NCBI RefSeq assembly: GCF_020085105.1
Contig: NC_058064.1
Coordinates: forward strand, 11,686,501 to 11,750,500
Reading direction: 5' to 3'
DNA: 64,000 nt
Source of the DNA: Siniperca chuatsi
Lineage: Eukaryota > Chordata > Actinopteri > Centrarchiformes > Sinipercidae
Shown: positions 15,701 to 63,510 of the stretch, piece by piece
Layout: every line of letters begins with the position of its first letter
How positions within the stretch are numbered: the stretch's first letter is position 1
Translations under genes and position numbers: made by a program
The notes under the pieces: generated by a model
The model's input: the letters and a program-made list of their open reading frames with translations, nothing else
What the model was told of the DNA's origin: nothing
The model's database searches: none

Positions 15701-18700
15701 CTTATACCACCTTCTGTACCTATTTTCACATTTGTAAATGAATGATGCATATTACTTTTAGAATGAAATACAAGACTTTTGCCTCTGAAACATGCAACAT
15801 ATGTACCAAATTTAGAAAATAAACAAGGAGTTCTGATTCCAAATTACATACAGTTGTCATATCGTTCAAATGATATGACATAATATTTGCTGACATGAAA
15901 GTAAAATCATATTATTATAATATATTAACTATCAAGAAACCCTTTGATATTAGACAGATTCTTTTTTAATTGCATATTGAGCGACATTAGTGGGAGGAAA
16001 CATTGTGAAAAACAGTGTAGAAACACATTCAGATTTACAGTTGAAATAAAATAAAACTGACTTTCGAAGCTTCACAGGTGCTGTTCAACCTCCAGTATTG
16101 GCATTCCCTGTCGCACTGTGGACACATCACAATTTCCCCTCCAATTTTTGGGTCGCACACCTCTTTGCTGCAGTATTTTAAACACAGAACAGAGATTATT
16201 AGACAGGGACATTTATAAAAACGAAGCAAAGATAAACAGCAGGGTAAAAAAATAGGCATAATGAGGATTTGTTATACTTTAATAATATAGATTAATTAAA
16301 CATCATATATACTTAATTTATTTACAAGTTCATCATTCAAAATCTCTTTTTAGTGAGTGTCTACAAGGAAATGTACCTCCAGGTGCTGGTGTCTTGAGTC
16401 TTGTATCCATAAATGAAACAACCCAGTCCCACAACAGCAGCCAGAGCGAGCATTATTGTGTAGAAACCTAACCAGGCAAAGTAAATACCGATCTTCTCCC
16501 CATAATACTTCCTGAGTAAAAAAACATTAGTTTTTTAATAACTACTGTGGCTGACACACACAAAACTCAATTTGCAAGGACAAAGAAATTTTGTTCCTGT
16601 TTGAACACACAGGGAAGGTAACTGCAGTCCAGCACAATACACAGGACTAAAGACTTCTAATTCTAGTAGTTTAAGTTCATTTTTGTGAAGTAAACATAAA
16701 TGATTGTGTTCACCTTATGAGGTCAAGTGGTTGCATCTTGTAGAAGCTTTTGGGATGAGCCCATTCTTCATAGAGCAGAAATCTCTCGTTGGGGCAGCCC
16801 TCATCTTTGGACTTGACATTGAACCTGCACTGAAATAGCCAACAGGGATAAAAAACAAAAAACAAAGGACATTTTCAGTAAATGTTTTCTTCAATAATAG
16901 CATGAAACTATGCAAGTAGTATCACTATTACAAACTGAAACCAACATACACCACATCTAATATGTCTTCAGTAAAAGACAAAACATATAGTTTCACAGCC
17001 AGACTAAAAATGAAAGGAAGTTACGTCATGGAGGGGATAGGCTGCTTTGTACACGCCACCATCCAGCAGTTTAGTGATGCCAAACTTCTTTATGCTCCCT
17101 CGTATTTCATAGGGGGCACGACTCAGGATGTAATACGCCTGGAAGAAGAAGATGTTTTTAATCTTTGTGTTCGAGTTATCTTTAATCTGAAATATAAAAA
17201 GAACTGACTGCAACAACGTGAGACAACTTGCCATCCTGCTCCTCATGGACGGCGTGAAGAAGGCGTCTTTGTTGCTCATGTGGAAGTACTCCAGACGGTC
17301 TTTCTCAAAGGGGGCGGTGAAGAACTCGGCCTCCTTGCCAATCAGGTCTTCGTTGGGGTAGAAGTGCTTGGTGATGCAGGAGAAAAGGCGCCACGGGGAG
17401 GGCTGGGAGGACAGGTCGTTGGGCTGGATGGGAAGCTTGATGTGCAGGACCTCGGCGTAGGTGCACAGCACGTCCCATGGCATGTGGACTTTCAAAAACA
17501 GCTCTTTCTCATCTACCACCTGCCGAACACAAAGACGGATCGTGTCAAGTATGAGATACAGTAAGAGAAACCTTCCAAAAAGGTGTTGTGTGCAATCTAC
17601 TTACAGATTGAGTTGCCTCCAGCTCCAGTCCCATCTTCATCAGGCTGGCCTCAAAGTACTCTCGCCGTCTCTACAGAGGAGAACACAGAAAAGAGTTTCA
17701 ATGAGCTTCTGGTTTTAATGCTCGCCTCAGCTCTCTGGCCATTATGATTAAATTTCTTTTCTGAAATTATATACATGACTTATGTGTAAATACTGTTGGC
17801 ATTTGTCTGCCAAGTGTATACACACAGAAGCATTTAATTTAGATAAATCTGACAAACGCACTGAATTAGTATGAAAAAGTATGAAACATATTCCAATAAT
17901 AGAGAATTTAGCACATCAAAATGCTCAGGAACAATGAATACAATAATTAAGACTTCTTGTTCCAACTGCTTTTAAACTTTTTGATGAGTTATTTGATTAG
18001 TTGGGATCATTATCATCCAAGGCAATTAAGTCTTTCTGAATGAATACAAACAAATAATGTCACTTAACCCCACTATCAGTCCCATTCAAAGGAATACCTT
18101 TGAGGTTGACAAAGCAAAAGTCAATGTTTGTTTTAGTCAACCCTGTTTTCATGACACACAGGAAATACCAGAAGTGTGTGAAAATTTAGACCAACATAAT
18201 CAAATATTTAAAAAACGGTTTAGCATCATTTTAAGCTAACAATTTAGATATCTGAAGTGAACCACGCCCTTCCAGCAGTCAGAGCAGAAAAAGGGTTTTG
18301 CAACTTCTGTTTGACCTAGGTTTAGCTCTGTAAAAACAAAGTAAAGGGAGTGTCTGGTAGAGACTGTTGTGCCTCTCATCCCTGACTGGATTTAGTTTGC
18401 TTTGGGATGATTATGAATGAGGAATTGCCTCAGTCCCAGTGGATCTGTGGTGAAGAAGCTCATGAGCTCTGACTTGCAACAACTCTACCAGCTGGCCTTT
18501 TCCCAGGAACTGGCTGAAACTGGATGATCAGCTTCTACACTTGATCTCCTGTGAGTTGCAGGGCACCACTTGGAGGTTACGATTGCAACACTGTAGGTAA
18601 CAGTCTCTGAGGTCTGTGAATCTACAGTATTGTGTAGTTTTGTGATGATGTATAAAAAAGTAGGTGGTATGTTAAATATTCAGCTGAACTAACACATAGT

Positions 18701-35544: not shown

Positions 35545-38500
35545 TCATTGTGGAGGACGAGGCTGTGGTGCCATGTGAAGAGCTTTCCTTCCTTGCTCAC
35601 ATGTTGATGGAAGTTGCCCCTCATTGCCTTGTGAGAGGTTAATCCACAGTCTCAGCGGTGGTGGAGGCAGTTCAGATTGGAATAGCGGAGGCCGCCTTGG
35701 TCTTATGGCTCTCAGATCCCTGCTTCGAACTGAGAGCATCCTGCTTGCAGGCCAAATGGCGAGCGTTCTTGACCTTCTATGACCTTTGCAGAAATGGAGA
35801 ACTGTAGCAACGAGGAGGACGATCAGGATGAGAAGGCAGACGACGAGGAGAGCTGTAAACATGCCAGTCATCCACTGATAGTAGTTAATCTGTTGTGAGG
35901 TGGCAGTGATAGCTGGAGATGCAGATACATAGGTGTTAGAGGTGGGACTGAGGGAAGTATTGGTGCCTAAACCTGGAGTCAGGGTAGTGTGGACAGCAGG
36001 GGTAAATCCATCGAACATGGGAGTGGAAGTAGTGGAGAAACAGTCTTGTCTGAAGCTCACAGTTCCAACTTTAGTGATCAGGAACTCTGGAAGCATTGCT
36101 TCTCTAAACGCAGGGTTAACTGATCCATCTGCAGACCTCATTGCGAACCACATGCTCCGTATTTGATCAACATGGCACCGTCTAAGTCTGTCATGACCCA
36201 TCCCACACAAGCTGTAGTTGTACCAGGACACCACAGTGGACCCAGGCCTTATGGAAACAACAGAGAGGTTGTGTTTGCTAGAGCTATTAAAGAAGCGAGA
36301 CAGTTTTGTCAGCAATAGTTCCACCCTGTGGCGGTGACGGAGAATGGAGTGAAGACTGCGTTGAGCTGTCAGGGTGAAAATGTGACAGGGGTCGACGGGG
36401 CTACGACTGAGATCCAGGGTCACAGGCAGCCAGGTGCTGAGGCTCTGTCTGTCCCGGGCGGCCAGTAGGAGGTACTGAGGAGCAAACTGGAGGTCCACCT
36501 CCAGAGGAACACCGTGAAGCTCCAGACCGTCCAGTGCCAACCACGTACCAACGCTGATGGGAGGCCCATCAATCAACCTAATATCCAGGGAAAGAGCGTC
36601 TGCCTCACCATCTTCTGGGTCTAGGAAGGTTTTAGGTGGGATTGAGAAGTGGAAGGGGAACCCAACAGTGGCCATCAACACTGGAATAGACATCAACACT
36701 TTGGGTGGGAGATTCATGGAGCCTGAAATATACATAAAATAAACAATGTTTAAATTATTGCTCAGAAATAGTGAATAAACATGTCTGTAAACAAACAAAC
36801 AAAAAAATAAATTTGATATTTCAGATTTATAGATATAGAAATGTTCGTTTGCAAAAACAAATTCAATGTTGGATGTTAAAGGTACCCTGTGGAGTTTTTG
36901 ACCACTAGTAGCAGTATGGAGCAATGTTTTGATGCGTGGGGTCCTGTTTTGTTAGTATTTTTTGTAGAGGTGCAACGATTAATTGATTGACAAAAAATGT
37001 ATTTATTTATTTAATGGAATTGCAACAGTTTTGATGATTGATCAGTTGTTTTCATAACTTTTTAAGCAAAAATGCCAAATATTGATGGTTCCAGCTTCTC
37101 AGATGTGATAATTCGACGCTTTTCTTCGTAATATATAATAGTAAACAGAACATGTTTTCTGACATTTTGCAGACAAAACGATTAACTGATAATAAAAAAT
37201 AATTGGCAGATTAATCGATAGTGAAAATAATTGTTGGTTGTAGCCCTAATCTTCTGTCGCACACATTAGGACACACATTCACATACAAGCTGCAATACAT
37301 TTTCCTGCCGCAAGTTTTACACTATTCCACTTACTGACAGTTGGTGGCGGTAACGCGCCAAAAAATTTAGCAACACAGCAGGAAAGGCTGCAAGGCAAGC
37401 AAGCAAACATGGATGTAAACAATGTAGATTTCAAATGTTTTAATAGGGGGGACATGCACTCAACAAGTTTGTCAGGTCTAAAAGAAAAGATTGGTGAGAA
37501 ACACTGAATGTAAACAAAACTTTGGTTACAAAAAACAATTCCACAGGGGACCTTTAATGTGTTTTCTTAAAACGTTGGTTTTGTTTCAAATACTTTCTAC
37601 TCTTATTGGGTACATAATAAGTAATAACTAATAAAAAAGCACTTTATGAATGTATTTATTTATTTCGTCAGTCTTTCCGAGAGTATATTTAGGCTTTTTA
37701 TGCAAAAAAACAATGTATTTGGGTAAAGATTGCCTCTAGTGCAACAGACATGTTGGCAGCTGTCCACTACAACCAGTTTCTCTAGTGCAACTGAGATTTA
37801 CAGGAAGTTCCTTGCTCAATGGTAATGGTACCCTTGGTACTTACTTGAGATGGAAGGTGTTGGCTGGACTGAGCTCTGTCTTCTATATAAGGAAAGGCCT
37901 ACAGCCTGTAATGATGTTAATAATGTGGTTGACATCCCATAAAATCGACTGAAAGACATGCTTAGAATCTGCTGTGTGGGACGTCCTTTTGTGATTGGCC
38001 CACTGCTGTCTGTTTGGCAGATTAACAAGGAATTCTCTATACGGACACAATTGCCACTGAGGGCAGATGTGTTCGCTGCTAATGATGTGTATGTGATTAC
38101 TAAGAAGCCACTCGCTTCTAGAGAAGGAAGAGTGTCTGAAATGTCCATTTGTGGTGTAGCTGTTACGTGGTTTATTTCTGTAGTCTTACTGGCAGACAGA
38201 TGCATCGCTGGGTTTGACGTCTGGGTTGAAAAGAATTGTTCACTTGAATCAGACATTAAAAACTGTGATGGAAAAACAGTCCAGTGCTTCCCATCTGGTG
38301 AATAACCTGTCAAAAAGTCCAGAACGTGCTCCACTGTGTTCTCGAGGTCGGTACGTCTGATTTGAGGGGTACAACCATTTACATACACATGATCCTGTGC
38401 CACAGATTGGCCACATAACGGGAATGAAGGATCAAGAGTCTGCATTTGATGAATGAAGGATGTAGTGTAGGGCTCCTGAACAGCAGAGGGAGCAGTTGGA

Positions 38501-48326: not shown

Positions 48327-51300
48327 TCATTTATGTGTTTGAACATGCATTTTAAAAGTGCCTTCTTGCCTGAATATTTTACCGCACTTCAGACACTGGG
48401 AAGACTTTTTGTTCGAATGGATCATCATGTGCCTCTTCTGCGCTCTCAAAGTGTGAAAGGATTTGGGACACACTGAACACCTGTAAGGACTCTCTCCTGT
48501 ATGTTGGCGCATGTGAACCGTCAATAGGCACTTTGCTATGAAACCTCTCCCACAGTGTTTGCACGTGTATGGACGCTCGCCTGTGTGATACCTCATGTGT
48601 AGCCTTAACTCCCCGGAGGAGAGGAAAGCCTTGCCACATTCTGTGCACAGATAGTTCTTTTCCCCTCTGTGCATCCGCATGTGTCTCGTCAGGTGCTGGA
48701 TCGAAGTCTTTCCACAAATGTGACATTTATAGCGTCGGTCTCCTGTGTGAATGCGAACGTGCAAACCGAGGTTATAAGAAGACCTGAAGCCCCGGCCACA
48801 GTGCGAACACAAATATGGTGTCTCCCCCGTGTGAATCCGGCGGTGCACATCCAGGGACCATCTGGACGAGTACTTCTTCTCACACTTGTCGCAGTGGAAT
48901 GGCAGTGTGTGTGTTTTTATGTGGCTGTTCAGGGTTGAAACATCCTTGAAGACTTTCGCACAATACATGCATGTGTTTGTTGCACTCCTCATCTCAGGAG
49001 TGCACGTTTCAGCATCTACTTCCTGAAGGACGTTGTCTGTCTGAGGTTCTTTAGACTGAGGTCGGCTGGGTTCCTGGATCAGGTGCGCCTGTCTGATGTG
49101 CTGCAGAAGACCTGACACTTGGCTGTCGGAGTAAGGACACAAAGAGCAGGTCTGCAGTCTTAAAAGTGTACGATTGTTTAAATCTGAAAGAGACGAGATG
49201 ATGAAGAGATTCGGTTTAAGTGCTACAAAAATGAAGTTTTTAATATAAATAATCATTTTCTGTCAAGATTATAGATTTTTAAAAGTACTAATTCTCTCAA
49301 TTTCTTTCAATCTGTGAAATCAATCCTTGTAATATTACTATAGTTATTCAAACAAATGAACAAAGTCGTATGAATATGGAAATTCAGTGGGGAAGCAATT
49401 ATTTTCAATGGTGTCTAAAACTGGATGCTGCCATACTTGAGCAGTTTGCAGCGGTCCGGTCATCGCTTTGTTCATCTTTTAACTTCAGGTCTTCTTCTCT
49501 TTTGCTACAGTCCTCCAGAGTTGGACTAACGTCAGTATGGTTTTCCTCAACGGGCTCCTCATCCTCCCTATAATCAAACTGCCCTTCATCTTCGCTACCT
49601 GTGGACAATTCCTGTTGCTCTGAAGCGAGTTGCTTCGAGTTTGGTTTGGGGGGAAGAGACAGCCTTGGCAAAAACATACTCTGAGTTTGAGAGTAGCCTG
49701 TGAGGAGAGAAAAAACCCATTAAAATCTGAGTAAACATGTAATATGTTGAGGTGTACATTTAATGCTAAGAGTCGAGACACTTGCGCCAATATGGGTCTT
49801 TCAATTTCACAGGGTATCTGCATACTTTAGTATAAATGTATTCATACAGTATTTAAGATTTTTAAATACTCACAGAGGGAAAAAATACATATTCAGGAAA
49901 TTTCTGTGCGTATTAGCTAGCATAACATGCTATAGCTAAAGACTACAGCTTGGCAAAAACAGCAAAACCAGCAGCATACAACTCATTGGGCTTACCATTT
50001 TTTGGGTGCCAGCATAGCACCACTGCTGTTCAGATTTCATTGAAGAATCCGGTGCTTTTCAGCCCATTTAAAATATTTTTTAACAACCGGTGCCTTAAAA
50101 TTCATTCATATTTACTGAGCTAAAGAGAAGTTTTTCCCCTTATCATAAACTCGTGAGTGGATGTGTACTATTAGATTTGTGACATATACTGATGTTTTTT
50201 TTTTTTTTAATGCAAAGAGCCCACGGGTGATAGTCATATTTCTTGTTCACAATTTTTGTGCTCAGCATGTCATTAAAATGCAGGAAAAACAAACAAACAA
50301 AAAAGGTTTTAACATAAAACATTTCTTATGGCCTATATCCAGTTTTGTTGTATTTCCATGGGTTTAACCACTTAAATACCAAGCATGTTTTGTAGTTAAA
50401 TTTCAGTGCTGAAAAATTCAAACTCAGGCATCACTTTGAAGTCAGTAAATGTTCCAAGAAATGTTCACATTGTGTCTCTTAAGAATCCCTGAATGGTTTA
50501 GGCGGCCTAGGGCAGTTGAGTTTATTTTACTGTTTTTCTTTAACACTGTAGAAGATGACTTACATTTGTTTGTGCTTCCTGACTGTTGCTGGTGGAAGTG
50601 CAGTAGTGCCTTCAGCTGATCCGGTTCCAAAACCAGTTGTCCACATTCTTCCATGACAGAGGGGGTGCTGCTGAGCCACTCTGCAGTCTTTAAAGTGTAC
50701 CCATCATAAACAAAAAAGACCATGTTTATACAACACCATCGATCATTTCCTGGCTCTTTATTCAGTATCTTGCTTGGTAACAGTTACTTTGACCAAAGCC
50801 TATTGTGCCAAAGTGTGATCAAAACAAATAAAAAATGATAAATCCCAAAATTTGCACAGAAATGATGCCATGCTTATTTTTTTAAACATTTCTATTTGCA
50901 CAAAGTGTTGATACATTTAAAAATGTACAGTACCTGTTTAATATCCGGTATAGGCAAAAGATTATCCAGTGTTGAGATGAATTTCCATACTAATGTGTGC
51001 AATGTGGCTTCATACTGCTGGCCATAGTGGATGGGAAAGACCTCCTGGGAAAGAATTCACACACACACACACACGCATACATTATGTCAGGAAAATGTTC
51101 CACTGTCATATGTCCAGTCTCTCTTCTCTCATAAAGATATGATTTGAGCTACTTGCCTTATTGTCTCCATCTTAATATTTACTTACAAAAGTATTAATAG
51201 ATTGATGAAACACAAGTCGCTATCTATAAAAACAGTCCGTTATCAGATACAACTTTAATTATGGTAATAGTATTAAGAATGTCTGACCTTGAAAAACATC

Positions 51301-54300
51301 TTTCTCTCCTCTGTGTCCTTGAGCAGAATATGAACAACCTCCACAAAGTTTGACTTTGAATTTTCCAACTCCTCCAATTCCTGTTAAGTGGTATCAAAAG
51401 CAAACAAACAAACAAACAAACAAGACAACGATAAAAATGTTGGTTCCCAAAGAGTGATTCAGGGTCCCTTTCGACCAATCAACAAGATGCATTATTAATT
51501 CCAAGTTTGATCAAAATCCAAAAACCAATCAGTCTAATATTGTTTTTCATCATATGTGCTTTCATTTGATACTTGACAACAGAGAAACACGTTGTACATC
51601 CATGACTTCAGCTGCTTGTTGACCAAGGACTTTATCCATAATGACAACCTCTGTCTTTTTGTTTCAGCAGTCTTATCTTTGACTTGCATTGCCTCGTGGT
51701 CTTATCAAAGCCCTGAGTGGTGAGCTCGGGGCTCAGCTGAGCAAACACTAATTTCTCTGTGGGTCAATAAGTAGCTCACAAACTAAATAAATAACATAAA
51801 ATGAAGTAAAGAGAAGCAGAGGAGCTGGTCGGTGTCCGTAATAGTGGGAGCAGATGCAGAAAAGCATCAATTAAACATCAAGGAGAAATCTGCCTGGACT
51901 GAAATCCCAAGGGAATAAAGAAGGCAGGGAAACCGATCAAAGAGTCATTACTGCTACATGGGAACAACATAGGGCCATCCTGTGTGTCAGAAGGGAGAAG
52001 ATCATTGCCTCAGGCAAAATGAGGTGGAGATCCATGGATGATGTCCTCAATGATCACTCACGGGACTAAAAAGGATTAAAAGAGGAATGCTACTTAATTT
52101 GGACTTTGAAGGGTCTGCCTTTCCCTTCTGTCTCTGACAAGAAAAACAGAGGAGCTTGTCCTACTACCATGTGACAACAACAGAACATCAGTTCAGTGTC
52201 TACCACACACAGCTAAAGCCTTGTTAAGGTGCTGAAGCTGACAAGCAGATTTTAATAACATCTATCTAATATAACCTATTCAACACTAATTATTATTCTT
52301 TAATTATGTGGGTGCCTCTTTGTAAAATAAGCTCTCTAAAATTAATTAAAAGTTCAAGCAGACGCCTAATTTAAGAGCCATTTAGAGCTCCATTACAAAA
52401 TATTCTTGATATTAACATTAATGTGAAAGCTGTGCTTATACTGCAGATCCAACTGAGAATCAACACACCGCTCTGCAGCTCTATGCTGCTTTCAGTTCAG
52501 TATTCAGACACACCTGCAGACTTACCTGCTGATCACAGGTGGAGCCCATTGTGAGGTTTTGAATGACCCTCAGGTGAGGCTGCATATTCAGCAGGTTAGC
52601 TGCGCTCTCACTGCGACACAATTCCAACACCATCTGAAACAGACACCATAACAGACATATATGTTGTTTGTCTAATAATATGTGTAACCTCAAGTAAGGT
52701 TACAAAATGTTACATTGTAATGTTCTAAATAATAAAATCTGCCTAACAACAAATACACTTAAGATGTGAGTTAGTTACTGTTAGAAATCCACTACACTGA
52801 CACTAAACAAACTTTTACTGTATAAATTTAAATCAAGGAACAAAGATAATTAGGAAGTTGAAATTATTTGAAATTCTTACCCTTGCCCTTAGTCTGAGCA
52901 GGAGTTGCACTTTCTCTCTGGGCGTCAGCAGCTCTGGAGTCAGCTCTGTCACCAACCTCACCAGCTCCTCCACCTTTCCATAATGTAGCACATTACAACA
53001 CTGGACCACTTGCCAGGCAAAGGCACACATCAGACGCAGCGTTGGAACCAGAAGACACAATGAGGAGACGGACAAGCAGGAACCTGCAAAAGGGATAAGA
53101 AAAAGTAAAATTACAGAGCAATCATAACTTGCATATAGATGTATTTTGACAAATATGAGAAGTTCCAAACCCAGTATAGATGGTCTCCCCATAAATGTGC
53201 AATTGCAATAATTGAAAGTTCCCTGTGTTTGCGACAATGTTTGTCTAATTCCCACAATATTTCTGTAAAAAAAGGCCAGATCAGAGGAATGACTACTAAT
53301 CATCACTCTCTCCTGCATAAAGTAACCTAATTCAGAACATAATTTCTAATATTTTAACCTTTAGTTTAAGTTTTAAGTTTACCATCAATCCCATAATATC
53401 CCAAAAAAAAAAAAAAATCTAGCCATTGTATTTATGGACTGAAAGCTGCACTCAGGCTCTGAGTAAACACCCTGCTTGACACATAATGTAAGTTGTAAGT
53501 CACAGTAAAGTACAAAAACTGCTTATTTTACTTAAGTCTTCCACTGTTTCAGAAAGGTCTTGCTGTGATGTCTGCAGAGATACAGGGGGTGAATCCATGA
53601 CTTCAGCTGCATCTTTAGTCTCAGCCTCTGGCTTACAACGACCAAGGACTTTATCCATAATGGCAAACCATCTGCTCTTTTGCTTTTTAGAGTCCGTCTG
53701 ATCCTTAACCTTTATGTATTTTTGTTTCAGCAGTCTTATCTTTGACCTGCATTGGCTGGTGGTCTTATCAAAGCCCTGAGTGGCGAGCTCGGAGCTCAGC
53801 TGAGCGAACACTCTCTCATTTCTAGTTGATCGAAGCTGCTCCTGGATGCTCTTCTCTGCCCATCGGCTGAGCAGCACTTTGACTTCATCTGATGTCCAAA
53901 CAGCCCGCGACGTATCTGTTGAAAGCAATGTAACCTAGTTAATACAGTAACAGCGCTCAAAAACGCAGATAATGACCTATGTCATGAGGTTTAAAACAAC
54001 ATACCTTTCACATGCACATACTCTGGTGACTTAGGTTGTGTCAGCACAGCAGATGAATCCACCTCTGTAGAAGTCTCTCCACCAGGGCCAAGGACTCCTT
54101 CTAAAATAGCAAACCAGTCACATTTAACGTCCCCATATGGTTCCACTTCCTTGATTTTCCTGTACTCCTCTTTAAGGTTGTTCACTTTAAGACTGCACTG
54201 ATGTGGTGTCTTGTTAAACCCCACCAACGCGAGTTCACTGCTGAGGTACCTAAAGACTTGATTGTTTGTTGCTGTGGTGAGAAGCTGTCTCTGAATGTTT

Positions 54301-56755
54301 GGTTGTGCCCAGAGGGTCATCAGCACTTGGATTTCATCAGGCAACCACTGGGTTTCATCTGTGAAAGTATAAAAAAGCAAAATAGAACAAAGGTGTCTTA
54401 GTTAAATTAAAAAATATACAGAAATTTAGTTAGTGTGCATTCAATTTTTCTTTATTTCTCTCCTGTGCATTCCCTTAGTTTCTCTGCTGTTTTTTATGGC
54501 CCAATAGCATGAGATGGGAGCTGAAGCTGGTCAAACGTTCCTCCCTTATGTACATAGAAAGAGGTGCTTAACTTCCAGTGGGGAGCAGCTTATGTGTTCT
54601 CTAGCAACATCTGCTGTAGCTTGTTTTAAATTGCATAAATTAAAAACAAAAAAAATCAAAGTAAAACAGAAAACAATCTTCAGATGGTGACAGCATGTGG
54701 CTGGTTTCTAGTTTTAATTTCTACTTACCATCAGTGTCCACATCCAGGACAGACTGTGACTGACTGAGCAGAGAGGGGTCTGTGGAGGAGGGCTCTGTTG
54801 TTTCTGAATGTCTTGCTGCTGCAGCCTTGGAACTGAGGACATCATCCATAATGGCAAACCATACACTTGTACGGGTGCTGTTGCTTCCACCTCTGTGTTG
54901 ACCGTTTTTGATTCTCTTGTACTCCTGCTTCAGTTTTTTTATTTTCTCCCTGCACTTCTTTGGCGCTTTGTTGAATCCAAGTGATGCTAGTTTAGCACTT
55001 AGGCGGGCGTAAACTTTATTATTCCTCACGTTGAGGAGAAGCTCTTCTTGAACAGCGGGATTTGCCCAAAGTGTCAATAATGCTTGGACCTCTCTATTTG
55101 ACCAACAGCACAAGGGCGTATCTGTGACAGCAAGAACGTAGATAAACTAAGTACATTTTAAGAAAGCAATGAATGATTTGAAGGCAAATGAAGTGAATTC
55201 TCAATTAAAGATGGTGTTCCACTACCACTTATTCTGCATAGCATTTAGCCTCTGACCAGTTAAACAAATTTTTCTCACAATGTATCTATCTAAAGACTTT
55301 ATTTAGGTACTTTTGAAAGACTCTTCCTAAAAAATAAACTACAACACTCAGTCATCGAGTCACACGCTTCTGCCTCATCTTGTTTAGTCCTATATATTAC
55401 ATCAAAACAAAGCGGTGTTCAACATGAAGGCCAGTGTTTTAGAATGAACTACTAGAAGTATAAATGTGCTTTAGATAAAACTTTTTTCCCCTGTCATGTA
55501 GGAATTATTAGAGAACACAACTAGTGTTTTACAATGCAGCAACTTGCAAAAGACATTTTTCTTTATTTGACAGAATGAGCAACGTTATTTATAAGTATAT
55601 TTATATCTTATCCTAAAGGTAAATTCCTTTAGCCTGGTGATTACTTGCCTTTGACTGATGTTTGCACTGCAGTAGAGCTGTAGGTACTTGTAGACGGACC
55701 GTCAACATCTTCTAGTTGAATGGAGTAGAAACCTGGGTACTGTGGTTTCTCTGTGGGGCAAGGTGTTGGGCCTGGTGTAGGGCAGGGTACGAAGGTGCTG
55801 TTGCAGCTTCCAGGAATGTCCGTCATAGTGTGCGAATCTGCAAGAGAAAAATAACCTAATGAATAAGGTTGTCACGATACCAGAATTTTAAACTTTGATA
55901 CAATACTTGTATAAAAAAACGATTCGATACCTCTTTCGATACAGGCAAAGAAATTATTTGTTCACTGATTTCCCTTTTATCAACACAAATCTACCAAAAA
56001 AAAAGCAGGTCAGCATTAATTTGACTTCAGTTGTCTGTATTTTTATTAATACATCTGCATAAGACACCTTGACAAGTGGGGTAAGGTGTTTTGGATGGGT
56101 GATTAAAACATGATTATGAGACTCACTATACATTGTGGTTAGTATTAACTCTATTTTGAATTTGTATTTAGTGTGTTTTATACTGTTTGTGTTTACTTAC
56201 CAATGAGCTGCAGGTAAATGTAAACAACTGTTTGAAAGTAACGTTTGTCTGTACATGGTCCCTGACGTATGTCTTTTACAAAAACCCAGGTGAAACAATA
56301 AACCGACTTTTTGGTTGACTGAAGACCTTGAAATAGAAAATAAGTCATATTTAGTAATATTTAGCCTATTACAACAAAGACAACTTACCTGTTCCAGCAT
56401 CTGAAACCATGTATTCAGGTATCATGGTGGCTGACTGTTCTGTGTTGTCTGTTGTAGCTGGTCTTTCACTCATGATAGTGTCCATAGCATCGTACCACCT
56501 GAAGGTCTTAACTTTGTCCCCACATCTGTCACTGTGTTTTTTTATTTTCCTGTATTCAAGTTTAAGCTTCTTTATCTTGTCCCTGCACTGTTTCGCAGAG
56601 CGACTCATGCCTACTGCAGCCAGTCTACCTGACACTTCCCTGTATACTTTCTCATTTCTAAATGATTCCCCGAGGTCATGCTGTATTTTTTCTTCCGACC
56701 ACACTGCTATAAGCGCCTTAGTCTCTTCATGAGACCAGTTCACCTGTGGCTCCAT
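48327..56755 (-). CDS. four Myb/SANT-like domains + TIN2 N-terminal domain + C2H2 zinc fingers
   Basis: Twelve exons: 56389-56755, 55649-55837, 54729-55121, 54005-54358, 53532-53915, 52881-53083, 52526-52633, 51288-51380, 50934-51044, 50564-50687, 49437-49697 and 48327-49183. They sum to 3,444 nt, 1,147 residues plus stop, all in phase. Exons 1, 3, 4 and 5 each encode a Myb/SANT-like DNA-binding domain, as in ZSCAN20/29 (WSHEETKALIAVWSEEKI, then QCRDKIKKLKLEYRKIKK, then RWYDAMD). Exon 2 is a Pro/Thr linker. Exons 6-10 (~563-775) resemble the TINF2 N-terminal (TRFH-like) domain: AFAWQVVQCCNVLHYGKVEE, LLRLRAR, MFFKEVFPIHYGQQYE. Exon 11 is acidic. The last exon has about nine C2H2 fingers, one short (CHICGKTSIQHLTRHMRMH). 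TIN2 bridges TRF1, TRF2 and TPP1 in shelterin; a telomeric or chromatin role is inference. Intron 2 needs a GC donor. The sister gene lies upstream. Confidence 0.85.
51600..51780 (-). pseudogene. relic of a Myb/SANT-like exon in intron 7 of the fusion gene
   Basis: It aligns with exon 5 of the same gene (53590-53815): 'accaaggactttatccataa', 'ttgtttcagcagtcttatct' and 'tggtcttatcaaagccctga' occur in both, with a block missing in the middle. Reading frame and domain are broken. It lies inside the TIN2-domain exons, so it is a dispersed duplicate rather than a normal exon. Confidence 0.85.
55860..55950. repeat. fragment of a dispersed teleost repeat in intron 1
   Basis: 'ggttgtcacgataccagaat' followed by 'aaacgattcgatacctcttt' is a motif I recall from repeats scattered in teleost genomes. 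Ends not resolved. Confidence 0.4.
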
Positions 56756-58337: not shown

Positions 58338-61140
58338 TTAATAATCATCGCTACCCTCGTCTTCCTCGTCATACTTCCTCTTTAGGGAGTGCTTCTTGTG
58401 CTTACCCCTGTGTCTCCGTTTACCAGAGAAGTCGGGGTTAGCGTCCCTCGTATGCAACTGCTCGTGCTTCTTAAGAAGGCCGGGGACGGAGAATCCCTTC
58501 CCGCACGTGTCGCACGTCCAGGGCTTCTTGCACGTATGAGTCCTTTTGTGGACGTTCAGATGGGACGCCAACTTGTAGGTCTTCCCGCACACATCACAGC
58601 TGAACGGGCGCTCGTTGGTGTGTAATCTGATGTGGACCTTCAGATTCCCGACCTGAGTGAAGCTCTTGTCACATATGGAGCACCGGTAGGGTCTCTCTCT
58701 GGTGTGGATCCTCAGGTGAACCCTCAGGCAGTACTTGCTAGAGAACTTCTTTTGGCAAACGGGGCATGGGATCTTAGCTTTGGGCACGTGGTCTTGCTGG
58801 TGCCTCTTCAGGTCAGACAAATAGACGAAGGTCTTTCCACACTGGGAGCAGAGATACTGGCGGTCACCGATGTGGTAGCCCATGTGTCTCTTCAACAAGC
58901 TGGGGACGAGGAACCTCTTCCCGCAACGCTCGCACATGTGAGGACGATCTCTGGTGTGCCAGCGCTCGTGGTTCGACAGCTTGAAAGCCGTTGGGAAGCT
59001 TTTGTTGCAGTGCTTGCAGGGGAACGTCATCTGGCTCGTGTGGCACTCCATGTGTCTTTTGAAATAGGTGGACTGCGTGAAGCCCTTGTTGCAGATGTTG
59101 CAGTAGAAGGGCTTTTGGCCACTGTGGGCCAGCATGTGCTTCGTCAAGCTCTGCAATTTGGTGAAACACTTGCCGCACTGGCCGCAAGCATAAGGACGCA
59201 CCGTGCTGTGGGTTTTCAGGTGGTTGTTGAGGAACGCCTGCGTTCTGAAGCTTTTGTTGCATGCCGTGCACAGGAAAGGCTTCTCTCCTGTATGAATGCG
59301 CTCGTGGTCCATTAGCTTGGACTGATAAGGGAAGCTCTTGTCGCACACACCGCAGGTGAATCTGTCAGCTGGAGGCCTAATTTGCTTTTTTCTTCTTATG
59401 CTTGGCTTCATGTCATCCCTTGCGCTCAACCTGGCTGGAGGAAGTGGTGGCAGGGCTGGGAGTGAGAGCGAGTTGGTGGCAATCTGTGACACCCACTGAT
59501 GCAATGTGACTCGCTGAGTTTGGGGCTTTTGGCCGTCCTTTGTTCCTGCACTGCCTGCATTCTGTATGGTGGAAGCGCTTTTGATCGGTACTTGAACTAC
59601 CCTGAAAGGGATTGATTTCAAGGGCAGCCCCCGCTGTACTTCTGGTTTCTCTGGTGCTGCTGGTGCTCCATCTTCTCCTCTGATTTGTGGAGTTGTGGCA
59701 GGCTGTTCCTGTGTACAACTCTTCTCTTGTACCAAGTTCTCCCTCTGGGCTGTTGTCGTGACACTCTTTCCCTTTGCAGCGCTGCTGTCAGCTGTTTTAT
59801 GACTGTATCGCCCTCTCCCCTGTGGTCCAGTAGCAGGGGCTGCTGGGCTGTCAGAGTCATCTGACATCACTCCTAAGTCTTCTGTGTCACTGAGGGAGGC
59901 TGGGCTTGTTTGGTTGAGGGTAACCTCTAATCGCTTCGGTGATTCTGGTGGTGGTGGTGGTGGTTCTACTGGTTTGGGCCGGAAGGCGAGTGAAGCGAGC
60001 ACACAGTCGCCCACTGAGGACGAGATGGTTGCTGCACAAATGGAGAAAGCTTAGTCAAATTCATTTTCACTATATTTAATGATTTATTTTCTTTTTCTTT
60101 CTGTGTTTCATCATATGTTTACAGGAACAACCCAAAGTATACCTTTAACACCAAGGAGTCCCTTGGCCTGCTGGTGCAGTAGGAGAGTCTTCAGGTCCCC
60201 AGGGTCAGGGATGAAGCCTCCACACGCCTCCAGGACAGTGGGCTCCGTTGAGATCATGGCACCAAGCTGAGGTAGAGGCAGGAAATAGAAATAATGAATG
60301 AGTTTGCAGTAAATCTATACTATCCATTTTACCTCTTAGGTTGGATCATGTTTTTATGGTCACTGTACAGATTATCCCCTCAGGAAGCTTTCCCCTGCTA
60401 TTTTATAAGGCTTCTTGTAACAGCTCACAGCTGTTGTAAAAAAAGATGACATTTTAAAAATATAGGTAATATAACCTAAATAATATCCTTAGTCCAGATC
60501 CTGACAAAGACAATTTCTTCAATGACATTATCAGGCCTTAAAATTCAGGCCTGAAATTGGTCCAGTGAATTGGTTACATTGATTTTTTACATTGTTTTGA
60601 TGTATTTCAGCAGTTTTTCACCTATATCTACATGGTAAAATCGGTTTGATGCTTCATTCCAACAAGGCTTAAAGCGTCTAGAGAGGTATGGAATTTTGCA
60701 GACATTCTAAACATGTGTCCGGATACTATAATGTGTGTTATTGATCACCTTATTGCTTTGGCCTGTCCATAGAGATCAATTACAAAACACCAGTGGGGCT
60801 GGGAGGAACTCTGGGCCTTGCTCAAGCATTTTGCCACTGGGTCAACCAGATAAAAGGTACTTCCTGTCTCCAACCAGTAGCCCACCCTGCTGTCACTGCC
60901 CCAGGGTAAATGTCAGAATGCAATGATAGTACACGTGCATACCTGGGAGAGATTGGGAACAGGAAGAAGTTGCTCCAGCTTGCAAACCAGACCTGCAGTC
61001 AGAGCCTGCAGCGCTGTATCGAACTTTGTGCCGTACTGAACAGGGAACACTTCCTGCAGAGAAAGAAATATGTATTCATTTAACAGCTTCATGACTTTGA
61101 AATTGTGAGGGCCAAACACAAACAACGTATACACTATATA

Positions 61141-61203
<63 letters not shown>

Positions 61204-63510
61204 TTAATGCCAAATTCACAGTATTGTTGTTCCTATTGTTGTTCCTATTTACACATTTTTCTGTTTGTGTTGGTAGACAACAGAATGGGTCAGTATGAAA
61301 TTTGATCGCATAAAATACAGTCATAAATACTATGTTATACTGACAACACTAGAAGCAACAAAAGGCTGTCATATTCAAGTACAGCCACAAAGCATCTTCC
61401 ACCACATTTAAATGGCTTTGTGTGATGACAACCAACCACTCTTTAATACCACATTAAGACAGATGTGGATACCTGGAAAAAATGCTTCCTCTCAGACGGG
61501 TTTTTAAGCAGATTCTGGACCAGCACCATGAAGTTCATTTGAGATTTCTCCACTTCTGAGTCCTTCTGTAACACAGGAAGTACTATAAGGTTTAATTCAC
61601 ACATTGGGATTCTAGTGTGCTGAATAAAAATAAACATAAGCTGTGTTTACAATTGTATATTATATGTTGCTCAGAAAGAAAAAAAAGTTCTTCAATCTTA
61701 CCCCTGAAGATGCAGAGACCTTCAACTTATTTATTAGAGTTTGAATAGCCCTGGAATCTGGTGGGCCCTCTTTGTGAATCAAATCCAAAATGATCTACAG
61801 TAGGAGATACAGATTATATATAAAAAAAAACAAAACAAAAACAAACTTCATATGAACATAAAGTACAATTGCAGTAATATTCTTTCCTAATAGGGATCAA
61901 GTATTTCAGACAAGCTTATTCAAGATAATCGCTTCTTTTTTCCTCAAACACAATATCAAAGATGACGAGCACAAGTGAAAGCACAAATTCTGCTGTGAAT
62001 GAGGTTGACAGCTACATTCAAAGATACAGGTATGGAGGCTATAACTTCAAGTGCTCTTTTTGTTCTTGATGTGTATGATTTCTAATAGGAAACATGTAGA
62101 GCTCATCAACATAGTGCGGTGTGAACATCCACTTTGATGTTCAGTAGCCTTAAAGAACAAATCCTGAGGAATGAATGCCATTTTAGAAGCCTGGAGAGTG
62201 CACAGCATCACAGGCTCAGTGTGATGGAGGCATGTCGCAACTAAAACTTTCTGGAAGCAGGAGGGTTTGAACCTGACAGCAGCCAAAGTATTGACTTTTG
62301 TACACGTCAAAGAGCAAGTATAGATCACTGATTGGTTTTTATCTCTATCTAGTTAAATTCACTGTTTTGATATCTGCTGCTTACATAAATTGCATTCTGC
62401 TGTTTGAGGCACACACACACAACAGAAGATAAACTCTCACCCTTGCTCTCAACCCCAAGAGGAGCTGAGCAGTCTGCTTGAAACTCATGACCTCAGGAAC
62501 AGTTTGCGTCACCATGGTCACAAACTCCTCCACTTTCCCATACTGCTTCACGTCTCTCTGCCGTATGACCTGCCATATGTACGAGTATGTCAGCTGCAGA
62601 GGGGAAGCCATCAAGCGAAGGGAGGCCAGGGGAAGGGCACCTCCAACACCTGTGCAGAACATGACATTAAGTTAGCACGTTTTGTGTAAGCATGTGTGAA
62701 AAGCCAGCAGTTTTTTTTTTTTGTTTGAAGCTGAAATTGTTGCATTAGGCACATATATGCATTTTATTTTATTGTTTTAACTTGTGTACATGGTTTCTAC
62801 TAATTTTCTACTTTGAACTTATATGATGCGCGTATGTGCTTTGTGTTTCATACTGTGTTTCTGTTTCACTGCTGTGTAACCAACTGAACTGCCCTTCAGG
62901 GACAATCTTCCCCTCTATCAGTGATGATGATGAGATCCATTGGATTTGCAAAATGTGTGTGTTTAATACAAACCTACCAACAGCATTAGTGGTTTTGCAA
63001 ACTGGAGTCAGAAGTTGCTGTAGGGGGCGCTGCAGTGCTAACGACATGCTTTGATCACTGCAGATAAACTGCAGAGGACTTGGAAGTGTGCACGTTTGCG
63101 CGTGCACATGCAGTCGTGAAGAGAATAAGCGCCAAACTACAGCCGAGTTAGATTCAAACTTTAAGTAGATAGCGTGGGCGGTATATTGTTACTTAAGGGA
63201 GTCATCATAGTTGATATTACACGATGCAGCGACCGATCAGGACATCCGGGGATGCTTTCATTTGAAATCAAGCAGCCTGGACAGTCTCTGCTAACGGTTG
63301 TTAGCTAGCTAATCACCAAACAGCGCCAAAATAACTGAAAAGACTTTGTTACACGCATGTTGAACTGCGATATAAAGCAAACAGTCAGTTTACCGCAACA
63401 GATGGCTTGCGCTGCATGTCATTTTCTGACCACCGTTCACGGCGGCAGCTACTGTTAGCTTGCTAACGTTAGCTTAGCAACTTACCTGTAGTATCAGAGC
63501 GTTTCTCCAT
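58338..63510 (-). CDS. TIN2 N-terminal domain + 11 C2H2 zinc fingers
   Basis: Seven exons: 63486-63510, 62441-62649, 61702-61794, 61473-61565, 60943-61053, 60143-60266 and 58338-60031. They sum to 2,349 nt, 782 residues plus stop, in phase throughout. It starts MEKRSDTTG. Residues ~9-218 resemble the TINF2 N-terminal domain (IWQVIRQRDVKQYGKVEEFV, LLLGLRAR, EVFPVQYGTKFDTALQAL, LLPVPNLSQ). A proline/serine-rich acidic linker follows (PPPPPPESPK, SDTEDLGVMSDDSD), then RRKKQIRPPADR, then 11 regular C2H2 fingers (~440-750) with TGEKPF-type linkers and a basic tail ending DEEDEGSDDY. Intron positions and several exon lengths (93, 111, 124 nt) equal those of the left neighbour, so the two are tandem paralogs; this one lacks the Myb/SANT-like exons. 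It is probably a nuclear DNA-binding protein; any telomere link is inference. Confidence 0.88.
61141..61200. repeat. (TG)n(TA)n microsatellite in intron
   Basis: Four TG units are followed by about 26 TA units, within an intron of the zinc-finger gene. Confidence 0.95.

Follow-up and report, generated by a model that had tools for sequence, protein, structure and literature searches.

What kind of protein joins Myb/SANT-like modules, the folding domain of a telomere scaffold and C2H2 zinc fingers in a single chain? To address this question, we analyzed a gene on the minus strand of a 64,000-nt stretch of the Siniperca chuatsi genome (the window; coordinates are positions within it). Its predicted product, here the window protein, carries the TRFH-type N-terminal domain of canonical TIN2 (TINF2_N in Pfam). 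TIN2 is described as the structural scaffold of shelterin (available part of PMC7617103). We favor, with some reserve, a reading in which this TRFH domain has been repurposed to head a predicted DNA-binding regulator with a role in chromatin or transcription at internal sites; the gene would belong to a family of TINF2_N-finger proteins, in a branch that has a Myb array. At the level of sequence, the gene structure, the identity of the domains, the family membership, the presence of a separate canonical tinf2 and the loss of the residue equivalent to E153 of human TIN2 are established.

All twelve exons of the window gene were found on the minus strand with compatible phases, spanning 8.4 kb with introns. 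An earlier reading of the letters alone (the sequence-only reading) had proposed twelve such exons summing to 1,148 codons, a number that the RefSeq model P0001 (1,147 aa plus stop) matches exactly; our own model came to 3,435 nt. The two translations agree except for Thr-Ala-Glu, which RefSeq adds by beginning exon 10 nine bases earlier (50687); these residues or a close variant are present in aligned orthologs. The exon 10 acceptor of our first model (50678) was dropped in favor of the better RefSeq one. Every intron is GT-AG apart from the GC-AG intron 2, whose donor is AAG/GCAAGT at 55649/55648. Isoform X4 (P0002) lacks exon 3. The exons are as follows:

56389..56755, minus strand: exon 1, start codon and Myb/SANT-like module 1 (myb profile, 118.2 bits)
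55649..55837, minus strand: exon 2, linker, followed by the GC-AG intron; same in RefSeq P0001
54729..55121, minus strand: exon 3, Myb/SANT-like module 2 (120.0 bits); missing from isoform X4 (P0002)
54005..54358, minus strand: exon 4, Myb/SANT-like module 3 (111.2 bits)
53532..53915, minus strand: exon 5, Myb/SANT-like module 4 (109.8 bits)
52881..53083, minus strand: exon 6, start of the TINF2_N / TRFH-like domain, phase 1 junction with exon 5 (105.9 bits)
52526..52633, minus strand: exon 7, TINF2_N
51288..51380, minus strand: exon 8, TINF2_N
50934..51044, minus strand: exon 9, TINF2_N; contains LVWKF, with K at the human TIN2 E153 position
50564..50687, minus strand: exon 10, end of TINF2_N; start per RefSeq
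49437..49697, minus strand: exon 11, TRF1-binding-like motif FLPRLSLPPK and acidic linker
48327..49183, minus strand: exon 12, about nine C2H2 fingers and the stop codon

Pfam was searched with our own 1,144-aa model, which includes one stray extra Ser, and matches were reported at E up to 0.1. The four Myb/SANT-like modules proposed earlier were recovered as Myb_DNA-bind_4 (four stretches, 1.1e-66). The TIN2-like domain proved genuine as well, and the outcome of no TINF2_N match did not occur: the match covers profile positions 1-149 of 149 (1.9e-45; 155 bits versus a cut-off of 29.4) and is distributed over exons 6-10, with the open frame of exon 6 alone reaching 45.6 bits. "About nine" was the right count for the fingers, eight by a strict pattern and one shortened, by eye, near residue 1016. 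Neither SCAN nor KRAB had a Pfam match at this threshold, and NCBIfam returned no match to the window protein. In a structure model of the protein, of middling quality overall (mean pLDDT 60.4, pTM 0.30), residues 581-720 scored 81-92 by ten-residue block, and VIA-align ranked 5xyf_A first. The best 50 of 265 Foldseek matches (E up to 10) were zinc-finger proteins by title with no TIN2 row, so that the fold match rests on the VIA-align list and on sequence.

The class of the Myb modules is of consequence for any telomere role. The telobox-class Myb_DNA-binding family was not matched in the window protein at E up to 0.1, and Myb_DNA-bind_4 and its kin were listed. Sequence matches of the modules in the PDB, at E up to 5, were two plant GT-1 entries (2ebi, 4.8e-4) and a chance dehydrogenase (1.7), with no TRF1 or TRF2 chain among them. 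By sequence, the modules are of the trihelix kind and not the telobox Myb of TRF1/TRF2; telobox identity is ruled out at this level by the Pfam assignment and by the nearest solved structure, plant GT-1. The parallel with the Myb domain of TRF1 and TRF2, drawn earlier, is therefore superficial. The likeness goes no further than the presence of a TRFH fold and of Myb-class domains in the same chain, and the window protein differs in its trihelix-type Myb, its TIN2-type TRFH domain, the order and number of these domains and its added fingers.

A search with residues 440-770 of the window protein returned 61 proteins, of which P0001-P0058 are of the same family; the named entries among these are presumably all acanthomorph fishes, from Polymixia and Myripristis through the percomorphs. 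TINF2_N together with at least one Myb module was found by profile in 57 of the 58 (four modules in 39 proteins, three in 9, five in 5, two in 2, six in 1 and one in 1), the exception being P0057, which has no TINF2_N match. Fingers are missing from some of these models, and in Melanotaenia boesemani two entries (P0014, P0045) come from separate contigs. The full frame is present in P0012, P0016 and P0037 (source "lgn"), whose longest contigs measure 3,885, 3,754 and 3,942 nt. These are most likely assembled transcripts, since 3.7-3.9 kb is too small to hold the introns of an 8.4-kb gene. Myb modules, TINF2_N and fingers occur together again in salmonids (P0294, P0295, and P0298), and Myb modules with TINF2_N in Umbra (P0296). 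Moreover, M581, the earliest ATG in exon 6, is within the first helix of the TRFH-like fold, past a conserved LLVPTLRL, and so the whole domain requires an upstream exon. A separate poly(A) site after exon 5 was looked for in intron 5, where there is no AATAAA or ATTAAA. Reading through that intron from exon 5 does meet an in-frame stop, and Myb-less relatives are common, as if two adjacent genes (a Myb array, and TINF2_N plus fingers) had been fused by the gene model; set against the recurrence of the joined frame and the position of M581, we regard such an artefact as very improbable. The window gene is a single gene.

The TIN2-like domain recurs widely among fish proteins. A three-sequence profile, run against the 7,999 candidates with the most shared words, matched 145 proteins; the best 120, which were listed, comprise canonical fish TIN2 (TINF2_N, no fingers, and in many a C-terminal DC patch), TINF2_N-only proteins, TINF2_N with fingers, and MADF with TINF2_N. 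When the query was the TINF2_N domain of a Hoplias finger protein, the best 120 of 374 proteins were mostly TINF2_N with fingers, and the matches listed extend to Scleropages, Megalops, and Brienomyrus. Using our own profiles, we classed 299 proteins (P0001-P0298 and the neighbor of the window gene), 298 of which have a TINF2_N match. Those without Myb modules divide into TINF2_N with fingers (122), TINF2_N alone (82, an inflated class, as it takes in fragments, models cut short and canonical TIN2 whose DC patch went unrecognized) and TINF2_N with a DC patch (18). Those with Myb modules are Myb + TINF2_N + fingers (55) and Myb + TINF2_N (8); those with MADF are MADF + TINF2_N (7) and MADF + TINF2_N + fingers (6). 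TINF2_N is thus paired with SANT-class modules in at least three arrangements: a Myb array before it, a Myb array after it, or MADF before it. Judged from these domain orders, TINF2_N is a recurrent head domain of teleost C2H2 genes. Relatives carrying database names such as si:zfos-932h1.3 or "zinc finger protein 184 / 135 / 2-like" share the clade, the finger tail and the family with the window protein; unlike it, 122 of the 177 proteins with TINF2_N and fingers and no MADF have no Myb modules. Annotators should be warned that teleost genes matching TINF2_N are often something other than TIN2. Zebrafish has a tinf2, the expression of which has been measured (available part of PMC5425123). 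We found no paper on a family of fish TINF2_N + zinc-finger proteins in the open-licence literature, and the available part of PMC10547256 has no mention of TINF2, TIN2, SANT or MADF.

Some database models show other joins. TINF2_N is joined to a Tc1-like transposase in P0113 (Maylandia) and to WD repeats in P0148 and P0215 (Amphiprion percula and Channa argus); these are probably merged models, though the WD join occurs in two species. By eye, P0065 (Salmo salar) has two TINF2_N-like stretches in tandem in one model.

A TINF2_N tree was built from 77 of the 298 database proteins, 11 loci of the Siniperca genome and the two window genes (90 rows; 86 after four long or uncertain ones were dropped). 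First, 71 of the 86 rows group in a clade (100/100) that includes no DC-patch protein and is separate from the canonical TIN2 rows, which with the root as drawn are a grade and not one clade. The window protein lies in this non-canonical clade and has TINF2_N followed by C2H2 fingers, as the family does. Second, the ten acanthomorph Myb + TINF2_N + finger rows form one clade (100/99), adjoining Aplochiton P0088, a model that begins inside the domain. Third, these acanthomorph forms sit in a 17-row clade (98/87) together with the Myb forms of salmonids and Umbra and two salmonid models that have TINF2_N only. The fusion therefore probably dates back at least to the common ancestor of salmonids and acanthomorphs, barring two separate gains of Myb arrays. 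A quick tree of 43 Myb modules, rooted at the midpoint, sets the modules of genes with TINF2_N before Myb (Siniperca C23:11.494M and Megalops P0232) apart from those of genes with Myb before TINF2_N (98); Myb and TINF2_N would thus have come together on more than one occasion or parted very early.

A PF14973 profile search of the Siniperca genome matched 35 exons, spread over 5 of the 65 contigs, all counts being lower bounds. These matches make up at least 18 TINF2_N loci (contig C24 may hold two), each examined in sequence, and 10 of the 18 lie on the window's own contig, C23. C2H2 fingers follow downstream on the same strand at 16 of the at least 18 loci, the window gene and its neighbor included, with fingers modelled in the same transcript for these two only. 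The locus at G000:C22:15.16M (L016) is the canonical tinf2: it has GDSILASLSLPPSGR and KTKHGTYVPTLREYW, carries a DC patch and falls inside the canonical percomorph group, adjoining Centropristis TIN2 (99/80). The possibility that the window gene is the fish's own TIN2 is ruled out, as the C22 locus groups with canonical TIN2 and the window gene does not. At C23:11.494M (G000:C23:11481000-11494000; L011, L012), TINF2_N is followed by six Myb modules, with no fingers in the examined stretch; Megalops P0232 (1,594 aa) has the same order, with eight modules. Among the 14 loci with the upstream side covered (the others being three on C20 and C23:18.158M), Myb modules were found to precede TINF2_N at the window gene only. 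These 14 gave no MADF exon, though C23:11.507M groups with MADF proteins.

We turn to the features by which TIN2 binds its partners. In our alignments there is a gap-free stretch with F, E and a K seven residues on, which we take to be F152, E153, and K160, the human numbering being otherwise presumed. Ten of the 298 proteins were left out of the count for poor coverage or no match (including P0011, P0052, and P0057 of the 58). The E153-equivalent is K in 54 of 55 acanthomorph orthologs, the window protein among them, and N in the remaining one; it is E in all 17 DC-patch proteins and all 13 MADF proteins. In human TIN2, changing E153 to Ala abolished TPP1 and TRF2 binding (PMC8262337 section 8, available part). 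The mammalian TRF1-binding motif is FxLxP (available part of PMC5309834). The window protein has FLPRLSLPPK, and fish TIN2 has LSLPP about 20-30 residues after the domain; this LSLPP may bind TRF1. A strict form of the motif was found in 16 of 17 DC-patch proteins (0.2 in shuffles that keep composition only and leave shared descent uncontrolled), in 92 of 119 TINF2_N + finger proteins (0.6 in shuffles) and in 24 of 53 TINF2_N-only proteins. It was found in 0/4 and 0/6 MADF proteins and was not found in salmonid P0295; the window neighbor fits a loose pattern only. Compared with TIN2, then, the window protein differs in having a Myb array before the domain, fingers behind it in place of a C-terminal DC patch, K at the E153 position and a separate canonical tinf2 in the same genome.

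Several observations weigh against a role away from telomeres. The strict motif occurs in 31 of 55 acanthomorph orthologs (0.2 in the same shuffles), and no other part of the protein is as well conserved as TINF2_N (0.85), so some tie to TRF1 or shelterin may have been kept. The argument from E153 extrapolates from a human mutant to a protein very distantly related to it, on the premise that the contact is the same. Further, E is kept in 107 of 119 TINF2_N + finger and 52 of 78 TINF2_N-only proteins, but 12/119 and 26/78 lack it, and the neighbor has G. Salmonid and Umbra Myb forms keep E, so the change to K or N arose later in the line of the window gene. The F152 position is W in canonical fish TIN2 and window proteins alike, and hence does not discriminate. 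A shelterin-linked protein, tied to TRF1 by its TRFH-like domain and motif and placed on telomeric or interstitial TTAGGG by its fingers and Myb modules, is nonetheless unlikely in our estimate: E is lost in 55 of 55 orthologs, the DC patch that canonical tinf2 on C22 keeps is gone, the Myb modules are trihelix-type and not telobox-type by sequence, and the gene belongs to a set of at least 17 non-canonical TINF2_N loci, in a family where this domain recurs as a C2H2 head. A telomere role, as entertained in the sequence-only reading, is thus possible on mixed evidence and is not established; it is not the best reading of these sequences.

Conservation was compared across 52 orthologs with at least five fingers and at least one Myb module. 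Beside TINF2_N, the fingers scored 0.81, the Myb modules 0.58-0.77 and the linkers between and after the modules 0.51-0.67. In eight fingers, contact positions were less conserved than other positions of the same 12-residue stretches (0.67 vs 0.80), while finger 1042 was nearly fixed at its contact positions (0.88-1.00). This pattern suits a partly stable target and, as far as conservation can tell, a strongly constrained interaction domain. Variable contact positions in a multi-copy, partly clustered family are also what one would expect of a fish counterpart of KRAB- or FiNZ-zinc-finger proteins that grew with mobile DNA and used TINF2_N as a recruiting head, and FiNZ genes offer a precedent (available parts of PMC10547256 and PMC11603059). 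Such transposon control seems to us improbable, given the near-invariant contacts of finger 1042 and the presence of the Myb + TINF2_N + finger order at only 1 of the 14 loci with the upstream side covered, from which it follows that this branch did not multiply in Siniperca. FiNZ- and KRAB-zinc-finger genes have in common with the window gene a multi-copy C2H2 family with a head domain; that head is unrelated to the one described here.

For the reading we favor, that of a repurposed head domain, we suggest the following course of events. The N-terminal half of TIN2 (the TRFH fold, usually with the TRF1-binding-like motif) would have been duplicated away from tinf2, and C2H2 fingers would have taken the place of its C-terminal part. 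In this branch, seen in acanthomorphs with close kin in salmonids and Umbra, a trihelix-type Myb/SANT array would then have been placed in front. Fingers and Myb array might recognize selected DNA sites, with the TRFH-like domain serving as a protein-recruiting head, as SCAN and KRAB do in mammalian zinc-finger proteins. TPP1 is an improbable partner; TRF1 or another TRFH-domain protein is a candidate, as is a new one. The most likely job would be control of chromatin or transcription at internal sites rather than end protection. That a shelterin scaffold domain could, as head of this TRFH-zinc-finger family, carry TRF1 or other TRFH-domain partners to internal sites chosen by fingers and Myb modules is a tentative idea, more doubtful than the reading itself; it draws on the many members that retain both the domain and the TRF1-type motif. 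ZSCAN20 and ZSCAN29, which combine SCAN, Myb/SANT and C2H2 fingers, are built alike: an interaction head, Myb/SANT modules and fingers. Their head is SCAN, whereas that of the window protein is TRFH. The SANT domains of ZSCAN20/ZSCAN29 are described in the available part of PMC3706607.

The interest of the finding lies more in the family than in a lone oddity: one fish genome contains many copies of the folding domain of TIN2 at the head of predicted DNA-binding proteins, with one branch holding three domain classes. Should the domain still recruit TRF1-type partners, a telomere interaction would have been relocated to internal sites in fishes; if it does not, a telomere scaffold domain would have turned into a recruiting module for general use, comparable to SCAN or KRAB. 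Both outcomes can be tested, since orthologs are present in killifishes and other workable percomorphs (Nothobranchius P0049 and P0051, Kryptolebias P0046, and Fundulus P0038).

Two further features of the window concern this family:

58338..63510, minus strand: neighboring paralog, the next gene upstream; 7 exons, TINF2_N and about 11 C2H2 fingers, 782 aa
51650..51757, minus strand: partial decayed copy of exon 5 (Myb module 4) in intron 7 (43.1 bits)

The sequence-only reading was right in seeing one gene, but the neighbor (63510-58338), itself a TINF2_N + zinc-finger gene, went unseen. It matches TINF2_N at 1.9e-50 in Pfam and has no Myb module in its model, and its TINF2_N exons resemble those of the window gene in lengths and phases. 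Its position in the tree is unsure (branch 0.8), and we therefore do not claim the two genes as each other's closest kin. The copy in intron 7 is 92.9% identical to exon 5 over 98 bp, which indicates that Myb exons were duplicated here not long ago. Elsewhere in the window, on the minus strand, are a dystroglycan-like frame at 35545-36951 (DAG1, 1.6e-8) and an anoctamin exon at 17004-17600 (Anoct_dimer, 3.9e-34).

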